Shown here piece by piece: positions 18,800-28,580 of a stretch of 37,465 bases of DNA. The DNA comes from Sediminibacterium sp. Gen4 (GTDB taxonomy: Bacteria; Bacteroidota; Bacteroidia; Chitinophagales; Chitinophagaceae). Where the stretch lies: assembly GCA_013391385.1 (NCBI GenBank), contig JACBFI010000034.1, positions 1 through 37,465 on the forward strand, written 5' to 3'. The notes under the pieces were generated by a model that saw only the letters and a list, made by a program, of their open reading frames with translations, ran no database searches and was not told the DNA's origin. Position numbers and translations under genes: made by a program. Within the stretch, counting starts at the first letter, position 1, and each line of letters begins with the position of its first letter.

Positions 18800-19246
18800 A
18801 TGTCATTACCCGGCAACAAAAAGAAGGTTGATGTAATTGATAAGGTACTGGAAGCCTGTTACCAGTATAATAAAGATGCCCTTTTTGTGATGAGCCTCAT
18901 GCATCAGTATGAAGAAAGAGGTAGCTTAAGCAAAAAACAGTTGGAGGGATTGGTAGCCAAGGCACGCAAAGTGCCGGATATGCCTGTAGGCTGGCTGGCT
19001 GCGGTTGAAGCCATTATACTGAAAATGCCTACTCGTGATAAAACACCTGTTGACCTGAATAAACAGGTAGCAACTGACCCTTATGAGAAATGGATCGATC
19101 AATGTAAAGAGATCCTCCAACGATATCCCGGACACAAAAGAGTGGTTTATTTTGATGCCTTGTTACAACAACGAAAACCTTTTTCGTCTGTTGAACAGCA
19201 AGAGTTAGAGAAGTTTTATCGGCTTTTGATTGAGGGAAAAAAATAA
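18800..19246 (+). CDS. Conserved hypothetical protein (148 aa), helical
   Basis: 148 residues, soluble and predicted mostly helical. It contains YEERGSLSKKQLEGLVAKARKV and, near the end, FSSVEQQELEKFYRLL. The pattern resembles short helical-repeat or DNA-repair-adjacent proteins in Bacteroidota, but I do not recognise a family. It starts 76 bp from the divergent GH10-like gene and ends 3 bp before a CRP-type site, so it is the last gene before the sulfur regulon. Confidence 0.6.
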   Translation: MSLPGNKKKVDVIDKVLEACYQYNKDALFVMSLMHQYEERGSLSKKQLEGLVAKARKVPDMPVGWLAAVEAIILKMPTRDKTPVDLNKQVATDPYEKWIDQCKEILQRYPGHKRVVYFDALLQQRKPFSSVEQQELEKFYRLLIEGKK

Positions 19247-19248
19247 GG

Positions 19249-19292
19249 CGTGACAAATATCACGAAACAGCTATTTTATCCGATTAAATTTG
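19249..19292 (+). promoter_or_regulatory. CRP-type site 1 (CGTGA-N6-TCACG) plus TTTG -7 box, promoter of the regulator gene
   Basis: The palindrome CGTGACAAATATCACG occupies 19249-19264. TTTG follows at 19289-19292, 24 bases later, and the ATG is at 19314. If transcription starts about six bases after TTTG, the site centre is near -41.5, which is where class-II CRP activators bind. This implies autoregulation by the product of the gene it precedes. Confidence 0.8.
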
Positions 19293-19313
19293 CAGATTGT
19301 CTAAATTGTGTGA

Positions 19314-19964
19314 ATGATCCCTATTGAAATCATACGAAAGCATTTCCCTTTTTTTGAAAAAGCGTTACAGGAGCAGATCGCAGATGCCGGTGAAGTTCGT
19401 GAATTTGAACCCGGTGAAATTCTGATGAAAACCGGGCAGAACATACGATCTACCATGCTCGTAATATCTGGATTGATCAAAATATTCAGGGAAGATGAAG
19501 AGGGTAATGAGTTCTTTATGTATTACCTACAACCCGGACAAGCATGTGCGCTTTCTATGGTTTGTGCTATTAGACAAGAGACCAGTCAGATCATGGCAAA
19601 GACTTCTGCCAAAACAGAAGTCATCACCATTCCTCTCACCTATATGGACCAGTGGATGGCGGAGTATAAAAGTTGGTACCACTTTGTAGTCAGCAGTTAC
19701 AGAGATCGTTTTGAAGATATGTTGCAGACGATTGATCATATTGCTTTTCGTAATATGGATGAACGTTTGGTTTTTTATTTACAACAACATCAGAATACAC
19801 TAAAATCGAATATTGTATCGGTTAGCCTTACAGAAATAGCACAGGAATTAAATTCTTCAAGGGAAGTCATTTCAAGATTGATGAAAAAGCTGGCTGAAAA
19901 AGGAATGATCAAACAACATAAATCACATATCGAAATCATTAACCTGCAAAAATTATTATCGTGA
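19314..19964 (+). CDS. Crp/Fnr-family regulator of the sulfur gene cluster
   Basis: 216 residues. A cyclic-nucleotide-binding-type jelly roll (about 10-125) and dimer helix lead to a winged HTH (about 168-205). The recognition helix reads SREVISRLMKKL with Arg183, Glu184 and Arg188 at the positions that contact GTGA in E. coli CRP; the sites found around this gene are CGTGA-N6-TCACG. There is no FNR-type N-terminal Cys cluster, so it is not an FeS oxygen sensor. Two cysteines, Cys78 and Cys84 in GQACALSMVCAI, sit in the effector domain and could sense persulfide or redox state. Its own promoter has a site at 19249, and its stop codon lies inside the next one (19960). Confidence 0.9.
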   Translation: MIPIEIIRKHFPFFEKALQEQIADAGEVREFEPGEILMKTGQNIRSTMLVISGLIKIFREDEEGNEFFMYYLQPGQACALSMVCAIRQETSQIMAKTSAKTEVITIPLTYMDQWMAEYKSWYHFVVSSYRDRFEDMLQTIDHIAFRNMDERLVFYLQQHQNTLKSNIVSVSLTEIAQELNSSREVISRLMKKLAEKGMIKQHKSHIEIINLQKLLS

Positions 19965-20004
19965 TATAAATCACGAAAGATTCAGAAGCTAAGTCTGAGT
20001 TTTG
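19960..20004 (+). promoter_or_regulatory. CRP-type site 2 plus TTTG -7 box, promoter of the TauE/SafE gene
   Basis: CGTGATATAAATCACG occupies 19960-19975 and overlaps the stop codon of the regulator gene. TTTG is at 20001-20004, 25 bases later, and the ATG is at 20022. Spacing is the same as at sites 1, 4 and 5. Confidence 0.8.
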
Positions 20005-20021
20005 CGGTCAAATTATTAGAA

Positions 20022-20834
20022 ATGGAAATTGCAGGTTATATCGCATCACTCGTTATTGGTATTTCACTAGGATTGATTGGTGGCGGAGGATCTATTCTCA
20101 CTGTTCCGGTATTGGTATATCTTTTTGGCGTAGAACCGGTTTTAGCAACAGCGTATTCACTCTTTATTGTGGGTGCTTCTAGTTTAGTGGGAGCAATTCC
20201 TAAATACAGACAAGGATTAGTCAACATAAAAACAGCGATTATTTTTGGAATACCCTCTATTGCTGCTGTTTTTGCTACCAGAAAGTTCATAGTACCCTTG
20301 ATTCCTGCTGAAGTATTTCAAATCGGAGACTTTGTCATCACAAAATCTATTTTGATGATGCTACTCTTTGCAGTACTGATGGTTTTTGCTTCTGTGTCTA
20401 TGATCCGTGAAAAAAGTAAAGACAATACTGAGGAGATTGAGGAACAAAAATTCAACTATCCTGTTATTCTTTTGGAAGGAGCTATAGTAGGTGTTTTAAC
20501 AGGCTTAGTAGGTGCTGGCGGTGGATTTCTCATCATTCCTGCATTGGTTCTCTTGAGTAAGCTGCCTATGAAACAAGCGGTTGGTACTTCGCTTTTAATT
20601 ATCGCTGCCAAATCATTGATCGGATTTACGGGAGATCTTAGTAATTATAGTATGGACTGGACTTTACTTAGTTTAGTAACAGGTTTAGCTATTGTTGGGA
20701 TATTTATAGGCAATCAACTCAGTAAAAAAATTGATGGTAATAAACTCAAGAAAGGCTTTGGTTGGTTTGTATTAATCATGGGTATTTATATCATCGCAAA
20801 AGAACTTTTACTACCCGGCAGTGGTGGTCATTAA
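20022..20834 (+). CDS. TauE/SafE-family sulfite/sulfonate exporter
   Basis: 270 residues with about eight membrane helices arranged as two related halves. Each half opens with a glycine-rich signature: GLIGGGGSILTVPVLVYLF (about 18-36) and GLVGAGGGFLIIPALVLL (about 162-180). The family moves sulfite, thiosulfate or organosulfonates across the inner membrane. In this place it probably removes sulfite made by the persulfide dioxygenase encoded downstream. It forms its own unit, with a CRP-type promoter before it and a strong terminator after it (20861-20896). Confidence 0.9.
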   Translation: MEIAGYIASLVIGISLGLIGGGGSILTVPVLVYLFGVEPVLATAYSLFIVGASSLVGAIPKYRQGLVNIKTAIIFGIPSIAAVFATRKFIVPLIPAEVFQIGDFVITKSILMMLLFAVLMVFASVSMIREKSKDNTEEIEEQKFNYPVILLEGAIVGVLTGLVGAGGGFLIIPALVLLSKLPMKQAVGTSLLIIAAKSLIGFTGDLSNYSMDWTLLSLVTGLAIVGIFIGNQLSKKIDGNKLKKGFGWFVLIMGIYIIAKELLLPGSGGH

Positions 20835-20860
20835 TATAGTCTCTTATACCCCCCAATAAA

Positions 20861-20896
20861 GAAAGGTCTGCAGCAATGCGGGCCTTTCGCCTTTTT
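20861..20896 (+). terminator. Intrinsic terminator after the TauE/SafE gene
   Basis: Arms GAAAGGTCTGCA (20861-20872) and TGCGGGCCTTTC (20877-20888) make a 12-bp stem with two G-U pairs and a GCAA tetraloop, followed by GCCTTTTT. It separates the exporter unit from the sulfur operon promoter. Confidence 0.9.
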
Positions 20897-20917
20897 ATGA
20901 CAAAGAACAGTTCGAAA

Positions 20918-20933
20918 TGTGACGAATGTCACG
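20918..20933 (+). promoter_or_regulatory. CRP-type site 3, upstream extra site of the sulfur operon
   Basis: TGTGACGAATGTCACG keeps the GTGA-N6-TCAC core. A TTTG lies at 20951-20954, only 17 bases later, so the geometry differs from the other four sites. It lies 75 bases upstream of site 4 (20993 would be the midpoint between them). It could be a second operator that represses an upstream start or cooperates with site 4. Confidence 0.7.
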
Positions 20934-21008
20934 TTTTTCTCCATTATTCATTTGCAATTTTACATAATAATAGCAAGGCTTTCAAGAAAAATGTTAAAGC
21001 CGCCGCAA

Positions 21009-21053
21009 CGTGATAACGGTCACGAAAAAAGAACAGAGCAGTTTTGACATTTG
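21009..21053 (+). promoter_or_regulatory. CRP-type site 4 plus TTTG -7 box, promoter of the persulfide dioxygenase operon
   Basis: CGTGATAACGGTCACG is at 21009-21024 and TTTG at 21050-21053, 25 bases later. The ATG of the operon's first gene is at 21081. The geometry equals that of sites 1, 2 and 5 and again implies class-II activation. Confidence 0.8.
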
Positions 21054-21080
21054 CTGTATCAAATCAAAAAAAAGAATACC

Positions 21081-22499
21081 ATGATAGTAGAACAAATTTA
21101 CACCGGATGTTTAGCACAAGGTGCTTATTACATTGAAAGCAATGGCGAGGCAGTTGTTATTGACCCATTAAGAGAAGTAGCTCCTTATATTCAAAAAGCA
21201 GAGCGCAATGGTGCGAAGATCAAATATGTTTTAGAAACACATTTCCATGCTGATTTTGTTTCAGGTCATATCGACCTCGCTAAAAAAACAGGCGCCAAGA
21301 TTGTTTATGGACCAAATGCACAACCTGATTTTGATTTTTACTCCGCTAAAGATGGTGAAGAATTAAAAGTAGGTAATGCCACCATCAAAGTATTACATAC
21401 ACCTGGTCATACTATGGAAAGCACCTGTTACTTACTGAAAGACGAGACAGGAAAAGAAGTAGGATTATTCAGTGGTGATACATTATTCATTGGAGATGTA
21501 GGTCGTCCCGATCTGGCTCAAAAAGTAAAAGCAGAGCTCACACAGGAAATGTTAGCGGGTTATTTGTTTGATTCATTGCGCAACAAGATCATGCCCTTGT
21601 CTGATGATATCATAGTATATCCGGCACATGGTGCGGGTAGTGCATGCGGTAAAAACATGAGTAAGGAAACTACTGACACATTGGGTCATCAAAAACAAAG
21701 CAATTATGCATTACGTGCTGATATGACCAAAGATGAATTCATCAAAGAAGTCATTACCGGATTGGTAGCACCTCCCGCCTATTTCCCCTTGAATGTAATG
21801 ATGAATATCCATGGTTATGACAGCATTGATACGGTATTGGAAAGAGGTCAGCATGCGTTGAGTCCCGAAGCTTTTGAAGCAGCTGCAAACGAAACAGGTG
21901 CATTGATACTTGATACACGTGACCCACAAACATTTGCAGTAGGTTTTGTGCCCAATGCCATCAACATCGGTATCGATGGAAACTTTGCTCCATGGGTAGG
22001 TGCTATGGTACCAGATATAAAGCAAGAGATTTTATTAATCACTGATGAAGGAAGAGAGCAGGAAGTCATTACACGATTAGCAAGAGTGGGGTATGATTTT
22101 ACCATCGGATACCTGAAGGGTGGTTTTGAAGCATGGAAAGCATCAGGCAAAGAAACAGATCAAATTCGTTCAATCTCAGCAGATGAACTGGCTAGCGTTG
22201 CAGCAAAAGAGGCTGTAAACATATTAGATGTTCGTAAAAATAGTGAATACCTCAGTGAACATGTATTAGACGCCGAAAATGCACCATTAGATTTTATCAA
22301 TGAAAGCATGAGTTTGATTGACAAAAATAAAACCTATTATGTACACTGTGCAGGCGGCTATCGTTCAATGATCTTCAATTCCATTTTACGCGCAAGAGGA
22401 TTTGATAATCTGATTGATGTAAAAGGTGGTTTCAAAGCCATTAAAGAATCAGGGAAATTTCGTGTGAGTGATTATGTATGTCCAACAACCTTATTATAA
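21081..22499 (+). CDS. Persulfide dioxygenase-rhodanese fusion (CstB/ETHE1-like)
   Basis: 472 residues from the ATG at 21081; a TTG at 21051 would start upstream but lies in the promoter. The metallo-beta-lactamase domain (1-~235) has the iron ligands of ETHE1: His54 (THFHADF), His110 (HTPGHT) and Asp133 (SGDTLF), plus GRPDL and YPAHG. Two rhodanese domains follow (about 255-360, 363-472). The first has Asp322 where the cysteine should be and is probably structural; the second has Cys423 in VHCAGGYRS. CstB-type enzymes oxidise glutathione or CoA persulfide to sulfite and pass sulfur to thiosulfate. It is the first gene of the operon that runs at least to 23776. Confidence 0.93.
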   Translation: MIVEQIYTGCLAQGAYYIESNGEAVVIDPLREVAPYIQKAERNGAKIKYVLETHFHADFVSGHIDLAKKTGAKIVYGPNAQPDFDFYSAKDGEELKVGNATIKVLHTPGHTMESTCYLLKDETGKEVGLFSGDTLFIGDVGRPDLAQKVKAELTQEMLAGYLFDSLRNKIMPLSDDIIVYPAHGAGSACGKNMSKETTDTLGHQKQSNYALRADMTKDEFIKEVITGLVAPPAYFPLNVMMNIHGYDSIDTVLERGQHALSPEAFEAAANETGALILDTRDPQTFAVGFVPNAINIGIDGNFAPWVGAMVPDIKQEILLITDEGREQEVITRLARVGYDFTIGYLKGGFEAWKASGKETDQIRSISADELASVAAKEAVNILDVRKNSEYLSEHVLDAENAPLDFINESMSLIDKNKTYYVHCAGGYRSMIFNSILRARGFDNLIDVKGGFKAIKESGKFRVSDYVCPTTLL

Positions 22500-22501
22500 T
22501 T

Positions 22502-22786
22502 ATGAAAACAATACAAGAAATCATCAATGATAAGAACACCGTTATCATTGATGTAAGAACGGCAAGTGAATATGGGGTTTCACACTATCCAGGAGCTATC
22601 AATATTCCCTTAGATGAGCTACCCAAGCACCTCAATAAATTAAGAACAGATAATCGACCTATTCTTTTATACTGTAGAAGTGGTAACAGGAGTGGTATTG
22701 GTATGAATTTTTTACACCAGCAGGGATTACAGGAAGTATACAATGGGGGTGGATTGAACGACATGTTATTCTATCAAAACAAATAA
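22502..22786 (+). CDS. Single-domain rhodanese (sulfurtransferase)
   Basis: 94 residues from the ATG at 22502, two bases after the previous stop; an upstream ATG at 22478 would overlap that gene and is not needed. The rhodanese fold ends in the active loop LYCRSGNRSG with the persulfide-carrying Cys. It probably delivers sulfane sulfur to or from the dioxygenase. GlpE/PspE-like enzymes are the nearest well-known relatives. Confidence 0.9.
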   Translation: MKTIQEIINDKNTVIIDVRTASEYGVSHYPGAINIPLDELPKHLNKLRTDNRPILLYCRSGNRSGIGMNFLHQQGLQEVYNGGGLNDMLFYQNK

Positions 22787-22788
22787 CA

Positions 22789-23025
22789 ATGAAAACACTA
22801 ACAAGCAACTGGCATATCATGCGTATCATACGCTTAATCTTAGCACTTGCTATTATAGTACAGTCGTGGTATATGAAAGATTCAACCACTGCTGTACTCG
22901 GTATAATATTACTAGCTAGTGCTGTTTTTAACATTGGTTGTTGTGGACCTGCCGGTTGCTCTACCTCTTTTAGTTCTTCTAAAAAATCTCAGGAAAAGAA
23001 TACAGCATATGAAGAAGTGGTATAA
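22789..23025 (+). CDS. Small DUF2892-type membrane protein with Cys-rich loop
   Basis: 78 residues. Two hydrophobic helices (about 10-27 and 33-50) are followed by NIGCCGPAGC, three cysteines near the membrane. DUF2892 forms the membrane part of the rhodanese YgaP, so this gene plus the preceding rhodanese correspond to a split YgaP. A role in sulfur handling at the inner membrane follows from this, and the cysteines could hold persulfide. Its end overlaps the next gene by 17 bp. Confidence 0.82.
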   Translation: MKTLTSNWHIMRIIRLILALAIIVQSWYMKDSTTAVLGIILLASAVFNIGCCGPAGCSTSFSSSKKSQEKNTAYEEVV

Positions 23026-23224
23026 ACAAAACAGTTTGATCATATTAGGGGCTTTGTCAGGAGCTATAGCAGGTTATGTGTATTGGAAATACATTGGATG
23101 TTTGAGTGGCACTTGCGCCATCACTTCAAAACCCTTCAATAGCACCATTTATTTTGCCATCATAGGTGCATTGGTATTCAGTTTATTCAAGAAGAACCCA
23201 AAAGAAAAGAGCTATGTTGAATAA
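23009..23224 (+). CDS. DUF6132-type small membrane protein
   Basis: 71 residues from the ATG at 23009, which overlaps the previous gene by 17 bp. Helix one (about 10-25) leads to the family block YWKYIGCLSGTCAITSKPFNSTIYFAIIGAL with two cysteines, and a second helix follows. The family is common in Bacteroidota next to rhodanese and thioredoxin genes; the function is unknown. Its place in the operon and its Cys pair suggest a thiol or sulfur-transfer role. Thioredoxin starts inside its last codons. Confidence 0.8.
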   Translation: MKKWYKQNSLIILGALSGAIAGYVYWKYIGCLSGTCAITSKPFNSTIYFAIIGALVFSLFKKNPKEKSYVE

Positions 23225-23519
23225 TGCATTTCAAAAGATCATAGATAGTGAAACACCTGTTCTGGTTGACTTTTATGCAGACTGGTGTGGACCTTGTAGA
23301 ATGATGCCGCCTGTTTTAAAGGAGTTAAAAGACCGAATGGGAGACCAGATAAAAATTTTTAAAGTAAATGTGGATGAACACAATGATGTTGCAGCTCATT
23401 TTCAAGTGAGCAGTATTCCAACATTGATGGTGTTCAAAAAAGGCGATCTTCTATGGCGAGAGCCGGGCGTAAAAAACGTTTCACAATTACAACAGATCTT
23501 ACAAATGCATGTATCATGA
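23214..23519 (+). CDS. Thioredoxin
   Basis: 101 residues from the ATG at 23214. The active site is FYADWCGPCRMMPPVL, with the standard CGPC. The family cis-Pro lies in VSSIPTLMVF. No signal peptide, so it is cytoplasmic. In this operon it probably reduces persulfides and disulfides made by the rhodaneses. It overlaps both neighbours (DUF6132 by 11 bp, HMA gene by 4 bp), which indicates translational coupling. Confidence 0.95.
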   Translation: MLNNAFQKIIDSETPVLVDFYADWCGPCRMMPPVLKELKDRMGDQIKIFKVNVDEHNDVAAHFQVSSIPTLMVFKKGDLLWREPGVKNVSQLQQILQMHVS

Positions 23520-23776
23520 CCAGCACAGAAATATTTTTTGTAGAGAATATGCGATGTAAAGGTTGTGCCAATACGATTGAATCAACACTCATCAAAATAC
23601 CCGGCGTTCAAGGTGTTGATATTTCATTGACAGATAAAAAGGTTTGTGTAATGGGTATCGGTATTGATAGAGATCTCATCATTAAGACCTTAGAAAAAAT
23701 AGGGTATCCTTTATCTGGCAAAAATTCCTTTCTCAGAAAAGCTGTTTCTTTTATTGCTTGTTCCAGCGGTCGATAA
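23516..23776 (+). CDS. HMA-domain protein (heavy-metal-associated, MRCKGC)
   Basis: 86 residues from the ATG at 23516, which shares ATGA with the thioredoxin stop. The domain has MRCKGCANTIE, the two-Cys loop that binds Cu(I), Zn or other soft metals in CopZ/MerP-like proteins, and a typical ferredoxin-like pattern after it. Its C-terminus has one more Cys in IACSSGR. An HMA protein in a sulfur operon is unusual: it could carry sulfane sulfur on its cysteines, or supply copper. No P-type ATPase or copper enzyme is nearby. Confidence 0.85.
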   Translation: MTSTEIFFVENMRCKGCANTIESTLIKIPGVQGVDISLTDKKVCVMGIGIDRDLIIKTLEKIGYPLSGKNSFLRKAVSFIACSSGR

Positions 23777-23803
23777 TCACTTCTATTATAAATCCCTTTA
23801 TAT

Positions 23804-25186
23804 ATGACAGTACGTATTGCTGCCATAGTACTTATACTATTTTTTCAAAACCTCTCTGCTTCCGCAATGCAGGAGAATGAAAGCAGTCTTATTGATAGCA
23901 ACAGCTTAAGAGCTGCTTTTGTACATGGAAAAACAGAAGCTCATTTTCGTTATTTTTTCATGGCTACTGATAATAAAAAAGGGCTTACTGATTATTATGC
24001 CCATGCTGTGGGTGGAGGATTAAAATATGAAACGGGGAAATTTCATGGCTTTCAGGCCGGCGTTGGCGGATTTTTCATTTTTAACATTGGATCTTCTGAT
24101 TTACATCAGCCTGACGCACTCACAAAACAGGTGAACAGATATGAGATCGGGTTATTTGATATAGAAAACGCATCCAATAAAAACGATATTGACAGACTAG
24201 AAGAACTCTACTTAAAATATCATTTTAAAAACACCACACTCACTTTAGGTAAACAACTCATCAATACTCCATTCATCAATTTACAGGATGGAAGAATGAG
24301 ACCTACAGGAGTAGATGGTATTTGGTTGAATGCAGTATCAAAGAAAACAAAATGGGAAGGGGGTGTTTTATGGGGTATCAGTCCGAGAAGCACTGTTCGC
24401 TGGTTCAATATTGGGGCTTCAATTGGAGTATATCCACAAGGAGTTCAGGAAAACGGACAACCTTCTGATTACAGAGAACATATCTATAGTAATGCCATTG
24501 GGGTTCTTGGTTTCACACATTCATTTCAGCAAGGTTTAAAGTTGCAGATATGGGAACAATGGACAGAAAATGTATTCAATACTGTTTTGGTACAGGTAGA
24601 TAAAAAATGGGGAAGCAGTTCCTTCTATTCAGGGGTACAAGGCATTGTACAACATGCATTGAATGATGGAGGAAATGTTGATCCAAATAAAACCTATATA
24701 CAAAAAGGCAGTAGAGCATTTAGTTTCGGCGCTACAACCGGATGGAAAAATAAAAATACAGACATTTCATTGAGCTATAATCGTATTACATCATCCGGTC
24801 GTTACATGATGCCGAGGGAATGGGGAAGAGATCCGTTTTTTACATTCCTACCCAGAGAAAGAAATGAAGGCTTTGGTGATGTACATGCCGGAATGATCAA
24901 ATTCAAGCAATCATTTCCGAAACAACATCTTCAGACATGGGTTGGATTCGGATACTACAGCTTACCGGATGTAACCAATACGCGATTGAACAAATACGGA
25001 ATGCCTTCATACACACAACTTAATATAGATATTCAATACCAATTCAGGGGAATCTTAGAAGGTATGAATGCAGAACTCTTGTATGTATATAAAGGACAAG
25101 AAGGAAATAGTTTCGGGAACAACAAATATGTGATACATAAAGTAAACACATCTTTATTCAACTTAATTTTAAACTATCATTTTTAA
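23804..25186 (+). CDS. OprD-like outer-membrane porin
   Basis: 460 residues with a signal peptide (about 1-22, LSASAM). The rest is a beta-barrel pattern of alternating polar and hydrophobic residues that ends with Phe (LILNYHF), the usual last strand. It contains LRAAFVHGKTEAHFRYFFM and LGKQLINTPFINLQDGRMRPTG, as in OprD/OprD-like porins, which pass small anions and acids. It follows the HMA gene by 27 bp. Thiosulfate or tetrathionate is the natural candidate substrate given the TsdA-like gene downstream; that is inference. Confidence 0.82.
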   Translation: MTVRIAAIVLILFFQNLSASAMQENESSLIDSNSLRAAFVHGKTEAHFRYFFMATDNKKGLTDYYAHAVGGGLKYETGKFHGFQAGVGGFFIFNIGSSDLHQPDALTKQVNRYEIGLFDIENASNKNDIDRLEELYLKYHFKNTTLTLGKQLINTPFINLQDGRMRPTGVDGIWLNAVSKKTKWEGGVLWGISPRSTVRWFNIGASIGVYPQGVQENGQPSDYREHIYSNAIGVLGFTHSFQQGLKLQIWEQWTENVFNTVLVQVDKKWGSSSFYSGVQGIVQHALNDGGNVDPNKTYIQKGSRAFSFGATTGWKNKNTDISLSYNRITSSGRYMMPREWGRDPFFTFLPRERNEGFGDVHAGMIKFKQSFPKQHLQTWVGFGYYSLPDVTNTRLNKYGMPSYTQLNIDIQYQFRGILEGMNAELLYVYKGQEGNSFGNNKYVIHKVNTSLFNLILNYHF

Positions 25187-25196
25187 TCGATGTGTT

Positions 25197-26174
25197 ATGT
25201 GGAGTAAGATTCAATCAGACTGGCCTGTATATCTGCTTGCATTCGTAGTAGTGTTGGTAATCGCATTTAAGATATCTACAAACCATCCTGAAAAATCATT
25301 GATTGCGGTGAAGGATAGTAACTGGCGTGCACCAAGCTTATACCTTGATCCAATTCAAAACAAACAAGAACGGGAGTTGATTAGTTATGGTAAAGAATTG
25401 ATTACGCATACTGCTAATTATCTTGGCCCCAATGGATCAGTAAAGCAGATCAGCAATGGCATGAATTGCCAGAATTGTCACTTAGATGCAGGAACCAAAC
25501 CCAATGGCTTTAACTTTAGTGCTGTAGCTGCTAACTATCCTTTATTCAGAGACAGAAGTGGGGCAGTAGAAAGTATTTACAAACGTGTGAGTGACTGTTT
25601 TGAAAGAAGCTTGAACGGCCGCGCACCGGATAGTACCAGTAGAGAATACCAAGCCATTCATGCCTATATTCTATGGTTAGGTAAAGATGTTGCGAAAAAC
25701 ACACACCCAAAAGGATTCGGTATCAAAAAACCGGATTATCTCCAACGAGCGGCTGATCCCGACAAAGGGAAAAAAGTATACGCCATTCATTGTGAACGTT
25801 GTCATGGCGCCAATGGCGAAGGACAAACGATCCCGGAGAATGCAGGATATATTTACCCTCCTTTATGGGGCAAGAACAGTTATAATACCGGAGCAGGTTT
25901 ATATAGACTTAGCAACTTTGCAGGATTCATTCAATCCAATATGCCTTTTAATGAAGTATCGGCTCATAATAAATTGACGGATGAAGAAGCATGGGATATT
26001 GCAGCGTATGTAAATAGTCAACCCAGACCTATCATGAAAGAATCACACGATTGGCCAGATATCAGTAAAAAGCCCATTGATCATCCTTTTGGTCCATATG
26101 CTGATAGTTTCAGTGAACAACAGCATAAATACGGTCCATTTTTACCGATTCTTTTTGCCAGAGAGAAAAACTGA
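25197..26174 (+). CDS. tsdA: Dihaem cytochrome c, thiosulfate dehydrogenase (TsdA-like)
   Basis: 325 residues. A hydrophobic segment (about 10-26) is a signal or anchor. Haem 1 is CQNCH (91-95) and haem 2 is CERCH (199-203). Cys134 in VSDCFERSLNG matches the unusual Cys axial ligand that TsdA uses on its active haem, and a Met in SNMPFNE (about 250) fits as ligand of haem 2. TsdA couples two thiosulfates to tetrathionate, releasing electrons to the respiratory chain, or works in reverse. It starts 10 bp after the porin gene. SoxA is less likely because of the dihaem layout and the Cys134 block. Confidence 0.85.
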   Translation: MWSKIQSDWPVYLLAFVVVLVIAFKISTNHPEKSLIAVKDSNWRAPSLYLDPIQNKQERELISYGKELITHTANYLGPNGSVKQISNGMNCQNCHLDAGTKPNGFNFSAVAANYPLFRDRSGAVESIYKRVSDCFERSLNGRAPDSTSREYQAIHAYILWLGKDVAKNTHPKGFGIKKPDYLQRAADPDKGKKVYAIHCERCHGANGEGQTIPENAGYIYPPLWGKNSYNTGAGLYRLSNFAGFIQSNMPFNEVSAHNKLTDEEAWDIAAYVNSQPRPIMKESHDWPDISKKPIDHPFGPYADSFSEQQHKYGPFLPILFAREKN

Positions 26175-26179
26175 GTAAG

Positions 26180-26224
26180 CGTGACATGCATCACGTTTCA
26201 AAAAACAGAAACCATTCATTTTTG
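26180..26224 (+). promoter_or_regulatory. CRP-type site 5 plus TTTG -7 box, promoter of the YeeE/YedE genes
   Basis: CGTGACATGCATCACG is at 26180-26195 and TTTG at 26221-26224, 25 bases later; the ATG is at 26245. Same geometry as sites 1, 2 and 4. It marks a separate transcription unit starting after the cytochrome gene. Confidence 0.8.
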
Positions 26225-26244: not shown

Positions 26245-26808
26245 ATGAAAGAATTTTTACAACAACCTTGGCCTTGGTACGTAGCCGGTGCTTTAATCGG
26301 ATTGATTGTACCTGCATTATTGATTTTAGGCAATAAACATTTTGGCATTTCTGCCAATTTGCGACATGCTTGTGCCGCTTGTTTTCCTTCCAATATCAAT
26401 TTCTTCAAGTATGATTGGAAAAAAGAAAGCTGGAATTTATTTTTTGTAGGGGGCATATTGATTGGAGCACTCATTGCAGCACTGGGTTTACCCGATCCGA
26501 ACCCGATTGTAGTAAACCCTGACCTAGTCAATGAATTGAATACGTATGGCATCAATGATTATAGTAGCATGGTGCCCCAGCAATTGGTATCCTGGGATAG
26601 TTTATTCACTGCCAGGGGATTGATCATGATGGTAGGTGGTGGTTTTCTGGTAGGTTTCGGTTCACGTTATGCGGGTGGATGTACCAGTGGTCATGCCATT
26701 ATGGGATTAAGTAATCTCCAATGGCCATCATTGGTAGCTACTTGTTGTTTTATGGCCGGTGGATTTCTCATGGCCAATCTGATCCTCCCTTTGATTATGA
26801 AATTATAA
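26245..26808 (+). CDS. YeeE/YedE (TsuA-like) thiosulfate transporter, first half
   Basis: 187 residues with four to five membrane helices. The Cys-containing YeeE/YedE signature is present: [19 protein letters not shown] (about 144-162). A further motif [10 protein letters not shown] (about 47-55) holds two cysteines. TsuA imports thiosulfate by passing it along such cysteines, and in TsuA both halves are one chain. Here the second half is the next gene, 11 bp downstream. Together they would bring thiosulfate or another sulfane sulfur species into the cell. Confidence 0.88.
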
Positions 26809-26819
26809 ATTGAAAAGAC

Positions 26820-27329
26820 ATGTCTACCGAAAAAAATACACAAGAAATACTAACCGATTTTGAAGTTCGCTCATTGGATACGGTTTGTATCAATGAATCT
26901 ACACAACAGCACCCTTGGTGGTACAATTTTAAATACCTCGCAGTGGGTATACTATTTGGAATTGTATTTGTAAAAGCTGAAATCATTTCATGGTTCAGAA
27001 TGCAAGAAATGTTTCGCTTTCAAAGCTTTCATATGTATGGTGTAATAGGTACTGCAGTAGTGGTAGGTGCTATTTCCATTGCGCTCATCAAAAAATTCAA
27101 AGTGAAAACTATTCATGGAGAAGAGATACACTTTACACCTAAAAAATTCAATAAAGGGCAGATCATTGGCGGACTCATTTTTGGCTTAGGCTGGGCTTTG
27201 ACAGGCGCTTGTCCGGGACCTATTTTTGCTCAGATAGGTATGGGGATCACTGTGATGATTGTTGTTTTGTTAAGTGCTATTGCCGGAACTTGGGTATATG
27301 GTTACTTTAGAGATCGATTACCTCACTAA
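26820..27329 (+). CDS. YeeE/YedE-related (DUF6691-type) transporter, second half
   Basis: 169 residues. A polar N-terminus of about 35 residues is followed by four membrane helices. The signature GLGWALTGACPGPIFAQIG (about 120-138) matches the second Cys-bearing repeat of the TsuA family. It is the partner of the preceding gene. The N-terminal extension is probably cytoplasmic. The MFS gene follows after 12 bp. Confidence 0.87.
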   Translation: MSTEKNTQEILTDFEVRSLDTVCINESTQQHPWWYNFKYLAVGILFGIVFVKAEIISWFRMQEMFRFQSFHMYGVIGTAVVVGAISIALIKKFKVKTIHGEEIHFTPKKFNKGQIIGGLIFGLGWALTGACPGPIFAQIGMGITVMIVVLLSAIAGTWVYGYFRDRLPH

Positions 27330-27341
27330 TACATCATAAAT

Positions 27342-28580
27342 ATGCAAGGGCTTCAAAAAAATGCTTTTCAATTTTACCTGCTGGTTTTAGTGAATGCATT
27401 TGTAGGAGCGATGATTGGATTAGAGCGTTCAGTATTATCCGGATTAGGTGAACAGGTATTCGATCTCACCGCATACGCTGTTATTCTTTCTTTCATACTT
27501 GCATTTGGTTTTACAAAAGCATTGGCGAATCTGGCAGTCGCTTTTTTATCAAGCAAATTCACCCGAAAAAAAATATTGATACTGGGTTGGGTGGCAGCTT
27601 TGCCTGTACCATTCTTACTCATGTATGCAAGATCCTGGGAATGGATCATTGTAGCGAATGTTTTATTGGGTATCAATCAAGGATTGGCTTGGTCTTCTAC
27701 TGTGATCATGAAAATAGATTTGGTTGGGTCAAAGAACAGAGGACTGGCCATGGGCATTAATGAATTCGCGGGTTATTTATCTGTTGGACTTGCTGCTTTG
27801 TTAGCAGGTAATATTGCTGCTACATGGGGTTATGAATATTATCCCTTTTTACCCGGTGTATTCTTTGTTATTGCAGGCTTGCTTATTTCCTTTTTTTTGG
27901 TAAAAGACACCGCTCATTTTGTAGCACACGAAACTGCTCAAAGTAATATAGAGATATATACCAAGCTTTGGCAACAAATAAGCTGGAAACACCATAACAT
28001 GGGATCTGTTAGTATCAATGGTTTGATCAATAACATGAATGATGCGATGGTATGGGGACTTCTTCCATTGTTGTTGATACAGCGAGATTTCACCACTGTA
28101 CAAATTGCTTGGGTAGCCGGTATCTATCCGGCTGTTTGGGGACTTTCACAGTTAGTCACGGGAACAATGGGAGATCGCTTTTGTAAAAAACAGATCATTA
28201 GTGCCGGAATGTTCTTACAAGGTGCAGCCATACTCATGTTCGTATTTTTCAGTTCATTTAGTTTAACTGTTGCGGCTTCTGCTGTATTGGGTATTGGAAC
28301 AGCATTGGTATATCCGAATTTTTTAACGGTGATCGCGGAAAACCTGCATCCTACACAAAGGGCTAAGGGGTTGAGTATTTTTCGTTTCTGGAGAGACAGT
28401 GGTTATGTCTTTGGCGCTTTGTTGGCAGGTGTATTAGCAGATATATTCGGACTTAGCATTACATTGATCATTGTTGCCGGCATAACAGTTTTGGGAGGAG
28501 TATTGGCCGAAATCAGAATGTGTTGCACCCTTCGTCATTTCTGGAAATCAAATTTATGTTCAGAAGCAATACTGTATTAA
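27342..28580 (+). CDS. MFS transporter, last gene of the sulfur regulon
   Basis: 412 residues with about 12 hydrophobic helices. MFS features include KFTRKKILILGW (loop 2-3, about 67-78) and a GMNEF-like segment AMGINEFAGYLSVG. It follows the split YeeE/YedE pair and presumably exports sulfite or sulfur anions, or imports them; the substrate cannot be told. The C-terminus after AEIRM reads CCTLRHFWKSNLCSEAILY, which is unlike the usual short tail of this group. The sequence change there may mark the junction with the accessory region. Confidence 0.85.
   Translation: MQGLQKNAFQFYLLVLVNAFVGAMIGLERSVLSGLGEQVFDLTAYAVILSFILAFGFTKALANLAVAFLSSKFTRKKILILGWVAALPVPFLLMYARSWEWIIVANVLLGINQGLAWSSTVIMKIDLVGSKNRGLAMGINEFAGYLSVGLAALLAGNIAATWGYEYYPFLPGVFFVIAGLLISFFLVKDTAHFVAHETAQSNIEIYTKLWQQISWKHHNMGSVSINGLINNMNDAMVWGLLPLLLIQRDFTTVQIAWVAGIYPAVWGLSQLVTGTMGDRFCKKQIISAGMFLQGAAILMFVFFSSFSLTVAASAVLGIGTALVYPNFLTVIAENLHPTQRAKGLSIFRFWRDSGYVFGALLAGVLADIFGLSITLIIVAGITVLGGVLAEIRMCCTLRHFWKSNLCSEAILY

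Follow-up and report, generated by a model that had tools for sequence, protein, structure and literature searches.

The window analysed here, a stretch of 37,465 nucleotides from Sediminibacterium sp. Gen4 (contig JACBFI010000034.1), carries a cluster of genes that would form a cst-like module for the detoxification and use of sulfane sulfur and thiosulfate, under the putative control of its own Crp/Fnr-family protein (gene crp). A preliminary description of this DNA had reported five CRP-type palindromes at 19249, 19960, 20918, 21009 and 26180 and had read them as the operators of a five-site regulon. All five were found at these positions, where they precede crp, tauE, the gene for a persulfide dioxygenase (PDO)-rhodanese fusion (two sites) and the yeeE unit, as listed below.

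19249..19264: operator 1, CGTGACAAATATCACG, 5' of crp, with TTTGC at 19289 and a centre at about -40.5
19289..19292, plus strand: TTTG -7 box of the crp promoter
19314..19964, plus strand: Crp/Fnr-family regulator of 216 amino acids (aa), with C78-X5-C84 in the ligand-pocket segment and R183-E184--S187-R188 in the recognition helix
19960..19975: operator 2, CGTGATATAAATCACG, overlapping the crp stop codon, with TTTG at 20001 and a centre at -41.5
20022..20834, plus strand: TauE/SafE exporter, of sulfite or thiosulfate by family (Pfam TauE, 2.9e-47)
20861..20888, plus strand: intrinsic-terminator-like hairpin 3' of tauE
20918..20933: operator 3, TGTGACGAATGTCACG, probably decayed, with TTTA, not TTTG, at the right spacing (the counterpart in locus L061 has TTTG)
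21009..21024: operator 4, CGTGATAACGGTCACG, with TTTG at 21050 and a centre at -41.5
21081..22499, plus strand: PDO-rhodanese fusion of CstB-like architecture, 472 aa (Pfam; PDB 3tp9, 4.4e-72, and 3r2u, 2.4e-68)
22502..22786, plus strand: single-domain rhodanese (Pfam)
22789..23025, plus strand: 78-aa protein without family match, recurring in many related sulfur clusters
23009..23224, plus strand: DUF6132 small protein (Pfam)
23214..23519, plus strand: thioredoxin (Pfam)
23516..23776, plus strand: HMA-domain protein (Pfam)
23804..25186, plus strand: OprD-like outer-membrane porin (Pfam)
25197..26174, plus strand: TsdA-like dihaem cytochrome c, thiosulfate dehydrogenase (SoxA-TsdA domain; PDB 4wqc, 6e-42)
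26180..26195: operator 5, CGTGACATGCATCACG, with TTTG at 26221 and a centre at -41.5
26245..26808, plus strand: YeeE/YedE-type (Sulf_transp) protein 1
26820..27329, plus strand: YeeE/YedE-type (Sulf_transp/DUF6691) protein 2
27342..28580, plus strand: MFS transporter, by its position probably the last gene of the yeeE unit

The cluster holds both the PDO-rhodanese fusion and the TauE exporter that define a cst-like module, and from the PDO gene to the cytochrome gene neighbouring genes overlap or are separated by at most 27 bases. The same two proteins are shared with the cst operon of Staphylococcus aureus, and the best PDB matches of the fusion are 3tp9 and 3r2u, the latter of which we take to be staphylococcal CstB. 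The OprD-like porin adjoins the TsdA-like cytochrome (23804-26174), an arrangement that suggests thiosulfate entry and oxidation in the periplasm. A Pfam scan of 20 proteins, a subset of those encoded in the window, showed neither a sulfide:quinone oxidoreductase (SQR) nor an hcp-like family, the rest of the genome not having been searched for the former. On the other side of crp, a 148-aa gene (18800-19246) without Pfam or NCBIfam match adjoins it both here and in L061.

The core GTGA-N6-TCAC occurs five times in the window, against a shuffle mean of 0.47 (0 of 100 shuffles reached five). The host genome (3,522,122 bases in 59 contigs, 98% complete) was searched for several forms of the motif, a genome-wide search having been among the checks proposed in the preliminary description, and the outcome depended on the form. 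Exact CGTGA-N6-TCACG was found in four places, all of them in the cluster, where about 1.5 would be expected from the base composition of the window; the fifth cluster site is a TGTGA variant. Looser forms were at chance level, with 44 places for GTGA-N6-TCAC against 54 for the reversed control, and 54 against 61 for CGTGA-N6-TCACG with one mismatch allowed. A regulon defined by either of these loose motifs was rejected on this ground, as was a global CRP-like regulon.

The spacing to TTTG proved more selective. From the end of the 16-mer to TTTG there are 24 bases at 19249 and 25 at each of 19960, 21009 and 26180, and the start codons follow these four sites after 49, 46, 56 and 49 bases, in full agreement with the 24-25 and 46-56 bases given in the preliminary description. 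GTGAY-N4-RTCAC-N25-27-TTTG gave four matches genome-wide, all in the cluster, against none in the control. Any N6 with TTTG at a gap of 20-30 gave 12 matches (4 in the cluster) against 4, and the refined motif, with one mismatch allowed and the gap set to 26, gave 7 on both strands (5 in the cluster) against 6. One spaced site with one mismatch lies outside the cluster at G000:C56:59209-59252 (L147), GTGATAGATGTCAC, with TTTC at gap 26.

Four of the proposed five sites appear to be working operators. The operator at 20918 has its nearest TTTG at 17 bases and TTTA at 25, and it lies 91 bases from the one at 21009. In an alignment with L061, the nearest relative, it corresponds to the only PDO operator there, and because this counterpart has TTTG where TTTA stands here, 20918 looks decayed. 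The segment 20918-20962 is probably a decayed promoter that has kept its operator; its candidacy as a working second PDO operator was dropped, and it may have an auxiliary role.

To place these sites among relatives, we compared 80 loci obtained by a contig scan with an alignment of 17 regulator homologues (A1). These are the best 80 of the matches listed, picked by regulator homology and not by site; by title, L091 belongs to Thermoanaerobaculia, L090 to an uncultured bacterium, and the others to Bacteroidota. GTGA-N6-TCAC occurred 93 times in them, compared with 1-31 times for each of the 11 other permutations of GTGA and with 1-19 times for each of the other spacers from 0 to 13, and 88 of the 93 had the form GTGAY-N4-RTCAC. 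TTTG followed 64 of these 88 sites at 26 or 27 bases in locus direction, counted here as in all relatives from the end of the 14-mer, and no other gap from 0 to 59 occurred more than twice. The exact palindrome is mostly missing from the 31 loci of Flavobacterium and relatives; there, sites with at least 9 of 10 motif letters and TTTG at gap 26 were found in 52 cases (0-5 at other gaps from 10 to 49), mostly with one half GTGAY and the other GTAAY. From these comparisons, the motif is better written GTRAY-N4-RTYAC.

In this form, with TTTG at 25-27, the motif yielded 133 sites in 69 of the 80 loci, with gaps of 26 (116 sites), 27 (16) or 25 (one). Of 23 permuted motifs used as controls, 22 gave 0-6 sites and the remaining one (81) itself contains GTGAY. 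The best downstream homologue was tauE for 53 of the 133 sites, PDO-rhodanese for 51, rhodanese for 7, yeeE for 4, porin for 3, crp for 2, the 78-aa gene for 1 and none for 12, labels that are best tblastn matches, some of low identity (about 31-45%). Only 6 of the 122 plus-strand spaced sites in the 80 loci overlap a stop codon, as the operator at 19960 does, and four of the six are at crp (L061, L062, L114, L131). That the palindromes are RNA hairpins or terminators, or mere chance, would fit the chance frequency of the loose core in the genome and the resemblance of two palindromes to minus-strand terminators in a simple scan, but it is already contradicted by the fixed TTTG spacing, by the repeated occurrence of the sites upstream of the same genes and by the helix-base match described below, and we find it hardly credible.

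The position of the sites points to activation. At class-II CRP-dependent promoters the activator site is centred at -41.5. In Flavobacterium psychrophilum, 5' ends mapped by RNA-seq place a TAnnTTTG box at -12 to -5 (PMC9723704). With the box at that position and 26 bases in between, the 14-mer ends at -35 and is centred on -41.5, so that the gap of 26 in 116 of 133 sites corresponds to the class-II distance; in the window the centre falls at -40.5 for crp and at -41.5 for tauE, PDO and yeeE. In a logo of the 116 gap-26 sites, whose flanks had not been selected, 112 carry A at -11, 109 a pyrimidine at -4 and 80 A at +1; T at -12 is not conserved (33 of 116), and only 3 have TTG within -34 to -29. 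An activator-dependent promoter would be expected to look like this, with a weak -7 box, a site at a fixed position and no -33 element.

We therefore propose the following arrangement. As the sequences show, the promoters have a TTTGY -7 box but no -33 TTG element, and the site has its centre at -41.5 or, in a minority, one base away. It is highly probable, though binding and activation are inferred, that a dimer of the regulator binds GTRAY-N4-RTYAC at this position and recruits RNA polymerase as a class-II activator. It would thereby control tauE, the operon from PDO-rhodanese to tsdA, the yeeE unit and, here, itself. The operator before the regulator's own gene, which the preliminary description had pointed out, is present at 19249 but is not a general feature, given the two sites with crp downstream in relatives. 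A repressor released by sulfane sulfur, as CstR, BigR and SqrR are, would be in keeping with well-known sensors of such operons, which are repressors. However, a gap of 26 or 27 to the -7 box in 132 of 133 sites, the absence of the -33 element and the position of the sites clear of the -7 box make a repressor quite improbable.

The regulator belongs to the Crp/Fnr superfamily, with PF00027 and PF13545 both over the cut-off, and both domains are found in 36 of 36 rows of a second alignment (A2) at E <= 0.001. In CRP, R180-E181---R185 are the residues that read the site, and R183-E184--S187-R188 of the regulator aligns with them, which bears out the Arg-Glu...Arg noted earlier. Some homologues carry Val at E184. 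The classic specificity mutants of CRP Glu181 lead one to expect A:T at base 7 in such proteins (these mutants were not found in the literature search, and the expectation was not recorded beforehand). The first 13 Val-type loci had GTAA as their top 4-mer, with only 3 matches, and the locus set was enlarged by a scan of 296 phylum genomes from which the best 30 loci were fetched. The resulting 140 loci comprised 101 Glu-type, 31 Val-type and 8 unclassified, counts that, like the Glu/Val and cysteine counts given below, are slightly inflated by the duplicates L033/L112, L034/L127, L035/L130 and L048/L200.

Spaced sites were present in 86 Glu-type and 19 Val-type loci, and G stood at base 7 in at least one half in 85 of the 86 and in 2 of the 19. 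Counted by halves, base 7 was G in 237, A in 77, T in 3 and C in 1 for the Glu type, and A in 36, T in 6 and G in 2 for the Val type. The difference held below 36% GC (35 of 35 Glu-type versus 1 of 8 Val-type loci with G). The Glu/Val trait changes at least four times on a quick tree built without this column, three of them forced by well-supported branches, although the tree came with long-branch warnings. The most local contrast lies within one supported group of four, where L179 (Glu, GTGACCAAAGTCAC) stands against L050 and L051 (Val, GTAACAATAGTTAC and GTAACTTTTGTAAC).

Furthermore, 100 related genomes (61 same-genus, 39 same-order) were searched by site and spacing alone. Matches numbered 91 against 16 for the control in the same-genus genomes (87 against 16 in 60 without the host genome) and 44 against 18 in the same-order genomes. 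Thirty loci, one per genome, were fetched and examined (the host window, 21 same-genus and 8 same-order); the test is partly dependent on the earlier one, several loci sharing contigs with crp loci (e.g., L152, L161, L162, L176, L177). Cluster-gene homologues lay directly downstream in 9 of the 21 same-genus loci, and one further locus was near crp and thioredoxin. A CoA-disulfide-reductase-like gene lay directly downstream in three loci, L161, L163 and L177 (1562-3043), with a crp match about 3 kb away on those contigs; that of L177, which alone was compared with solved structures, best matched 3icr and also 8a56, a CoA-persulfide reductase. A peroxiredoxin-like gene was downstream in two (L168, 1624-2268, and L175, 1564-2208; Pfam was run on L168 only). 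Among the same-order loci, one of 8 precedes tauE and one a rhodanese beside crp. As in the 80 loci, these downstream genes were labelled by their best tblastn match, in some cases of low identity.

As for the signal, C78 and C84 are the only cysteines of the regulator and lie in the segment equivalent to the cAMP site of CRP. Glu72, Arg82 and Ser83 are cAMP-contacting residues of the phosphate-binding cassette of CRP; here Glu72 falls in a gap, Arg82 is replaced by Thr90 and Ser83 is kept as Ser91, so that the pattern is not that of a cAMP-dependent CRP, and C78-X5-C84 would stand in place of the cAMP pocket. All 139 relatives have C78, and 135 of them also have C84. The predicted structure has a Crp fold (mean pLDDT 84.7, pTM 0.63). 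PDB 3dv8 (Crp/Fnr protein, Eubacterium rectale), which has a cysteine at each of the two aligned positions, ranks first by sequence and by Foldseek E-value and may belong to the same sensor group, but it has 22% identity and a TM score of 0.57, below those of Thermus CRP 4ev0 and Porphyromonas gingivalis HcpR 9day, which superpose better (0.70-0.72). L132 holds, from 14912 onward, a second C-X5-C Crp relative (37% identity) in addition to its closer homologue.

By analogy with BigR and CstR and from the nature of the targets, we infer that sulfane sulfur acts through C78 and C84. It seems fairly likely that persulfide or polysulfide modifies or bridges the two cysteines, giving a DNA-binding form that would turn the genes on as sulfane sulfur rises. 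The same regulon and class-II mechanism could instead serve another signal, such as general thiol oxidation, nitric oxide (NO), haem, a metal, an iron-sulfur cluster bridging two subunits or a small ligand. Crp/Fnr proteins respond to many signals, HcpR among them sensing haem/NO, the model can be superposed on P. gingivalis HcpR at a TM score of 0.72, and the two same-genus sites of L168 and L175 precede a peroxiredoxin-like gene. HcpR also has a CRP-like motif and is tied to nitrite stress and, in Desulfovibrio, to some sulfur genes, and an altered Arg180 there goes with an altered motif (PMC545781). However, the conserved target of HcpR is hcp, whereas relatives of the regulator mainly target tauE and PDO, along with rhodanese and yeeE; HcpR is absent from the 36 sequence matches at E <= 0.001; and C78 and C84 are too few for an FNR-type cluster, which takes four ligating cysteines per subunit. 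We thus regard a signal other than sulfane sulfur as rather unlikely.

Several observations weigh against a sulfane-sulfur-sensing class-II activator of these genes. The position of the -7 box is taken from another family of the phylum. Among 256 4-mers in the Y-N4-R frame of the 80 loci, GTGA (88) is second to TTTT (118) by raw count, and 11 of the 80 loci lack a spaced site. In independent pairs, the site follows the helix in about 2 of 3 pairs and never in the opposite direction, too few pairs for significance. C84 is absent in L059, L060 and L203 (29-31% identity) and in L068; the last (60% identity) has Ser for C84 and, in its 9.7 kb, neither another cluster gene nor a site was found, and L060 still adjoins rhodanese and thioredoxin genes. 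Model confidence is lowest for residues 81-90 (mean pLDDT 59), and 6 of the 21 same-genus loci found by pattern precede no recognised sulfur or thiol gene.

The main objection is that some same-genus assemblies keep the sites without such a regulator. We re-searched 12 of them, using the 36-row alignment and a same-genus protein, that have spaced sites and in which the earlier match was absent or weak or the genome had not yet been scanned. No full-length regulator homologue was found in any of the 12; four gave weak or incomplete matches, that in G022 being a stretch of 32 residues. Seven (G001, G008, G014, G029, G030, G079, G080) had no Crp-type helix at E <= 0.001, five of these being 92-98% complete with at most 3% contamination, and of the six helices in the other assemblies the two that were read were of TES type. 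The examined site precedes a sulfur or thioredoxin gene in 7 of the 12 (G001, G008, G014, G022, G029, G079, G080). By hand count, 18 sites lie in 11 of the 15 same-genus genomes without any match, and 41 lie in 12 of the 14 whose regulator is of Glu type.

In these assemblies the gene may be missing from a broken assembly, may have been lost recently, or the sites may be read by another protein. That the sites are read wholly or partly by another protein, the linked Crp not being the main regulator, would account for their persistence where no homologue or even Crp-type helix was detectable. Against it stand the match between recognition-helix residue and site base (85 of 86 versus 2 of 19), the joint occurrence of regulator and spaced sites in 69 of 80 loci, and the fact that the assemblies in question are small and broken (about 40-230 contigs). 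Moreover, the sole other Crp-type helix over the Pfam cut-off in the host genome, GTATESTIR, lacks the Arg of the recognition motif and belongs to a protein with an N-terminal cysteine group. Another reader of the sites is improbable on this evidence.

The proposal of a local Crp-type regulon at the class-II position thus gains from the confinement of the motif, its recurrence with fixed spacing, the logo and the helix-base match, and is only partly supported, in part because same-genus assemblies in which no regulator of this kind was detected still carry spaced sites, which lowers our confidence. We still consider it likely on the whole that the cluster is a cst-like module under its own Crp/Fnr-type class-II activator, with sulfane-sulfur sensing by the cysteine pair. 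The C78-X5-C84 pair is an addition to the preliminary description, which gave no sensing mechanism. The observation itself is real and part of a larger conserved Bacteroidota arrangement, a C-X5-C Crp-type regulator with class-II-like sites before sulfane-sulfur genes.

The regulator differs from each known system with which it has something in common. It shares with E. coli CRP, at class-II promoters, the fold, GTGA-N6-TCAC half-sites, Arg-Glu...Arg recognition residues and a predicted centre at -41.5; it differs in having a cysteine pair instead of cAMP contacts, a TTTG-type -7 box and a local rather than global regulon. S. aureus CstR is a CsoR-type repressor, whereas here a putative Crp-family activator is found with a TsdA-like cytochrome, a porin and a YeeE pair; Crp domains by Pfam and the Crp fold of the model set it apart from the CsoR and ArsR folds. 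The ArsR-type repressors BigR, SqrR and SoxR sense through two cysteines, as is proposed here, and control PDO, TauE and YeeE-type genes, but they are winged-helix repressors of another fold and of opposite sign. FisR of Cupriavidus and Acinetobacter, a reactive-sulfur activator that works via cysteines and controls PDO, SQR and TauE, resembles the role proposed here but belongs to another protein family and acts at sigma-54 promoters. A Crp-like protein of Acinetobacter is reported to be persulfidated, with unknown effect (PMC7315123), and a response to sulfane sulfur is reported for the broader regulators OxyR and AdpA. No Crp/Fnr-type regulator of sulfane-sulfur genes was named in the listed titles and abstract openings of the open-licence literature searched, which does not prove that none has been described.

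The protein family is known, and the regulon with its probable sensing mode would be a new form of it. We lean only slightly towards the broader view that this is a widespread family of Crp/Fnr-type sulfane-sulfur sensors of Bacteroidota, in which C-X5-C would replace cyclic-nucleotide binding, cst-like genes would be activated from class-II positions, and a natural change of Glu to Val would go with G:C to A:T at base 7. Such a change would be the natural parallel of the classic specificity mutants at Glu181 of CRP, and it could be tested by altering a single residue and a single base pair. For the TAnnTTTG promoters of Bacteroidota, the arrangement also supplies a definite model of class-II activation. 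The dedicated sensors of such operons in the literature consulted are repressors (CstR, BigR/SqrR, SoxR/sHdrR) or the sigma-54 activator FisR; if the proposal is true, a Crp-type activator with a dithiol would represent another kind of solution, one found across Bacteroidota.

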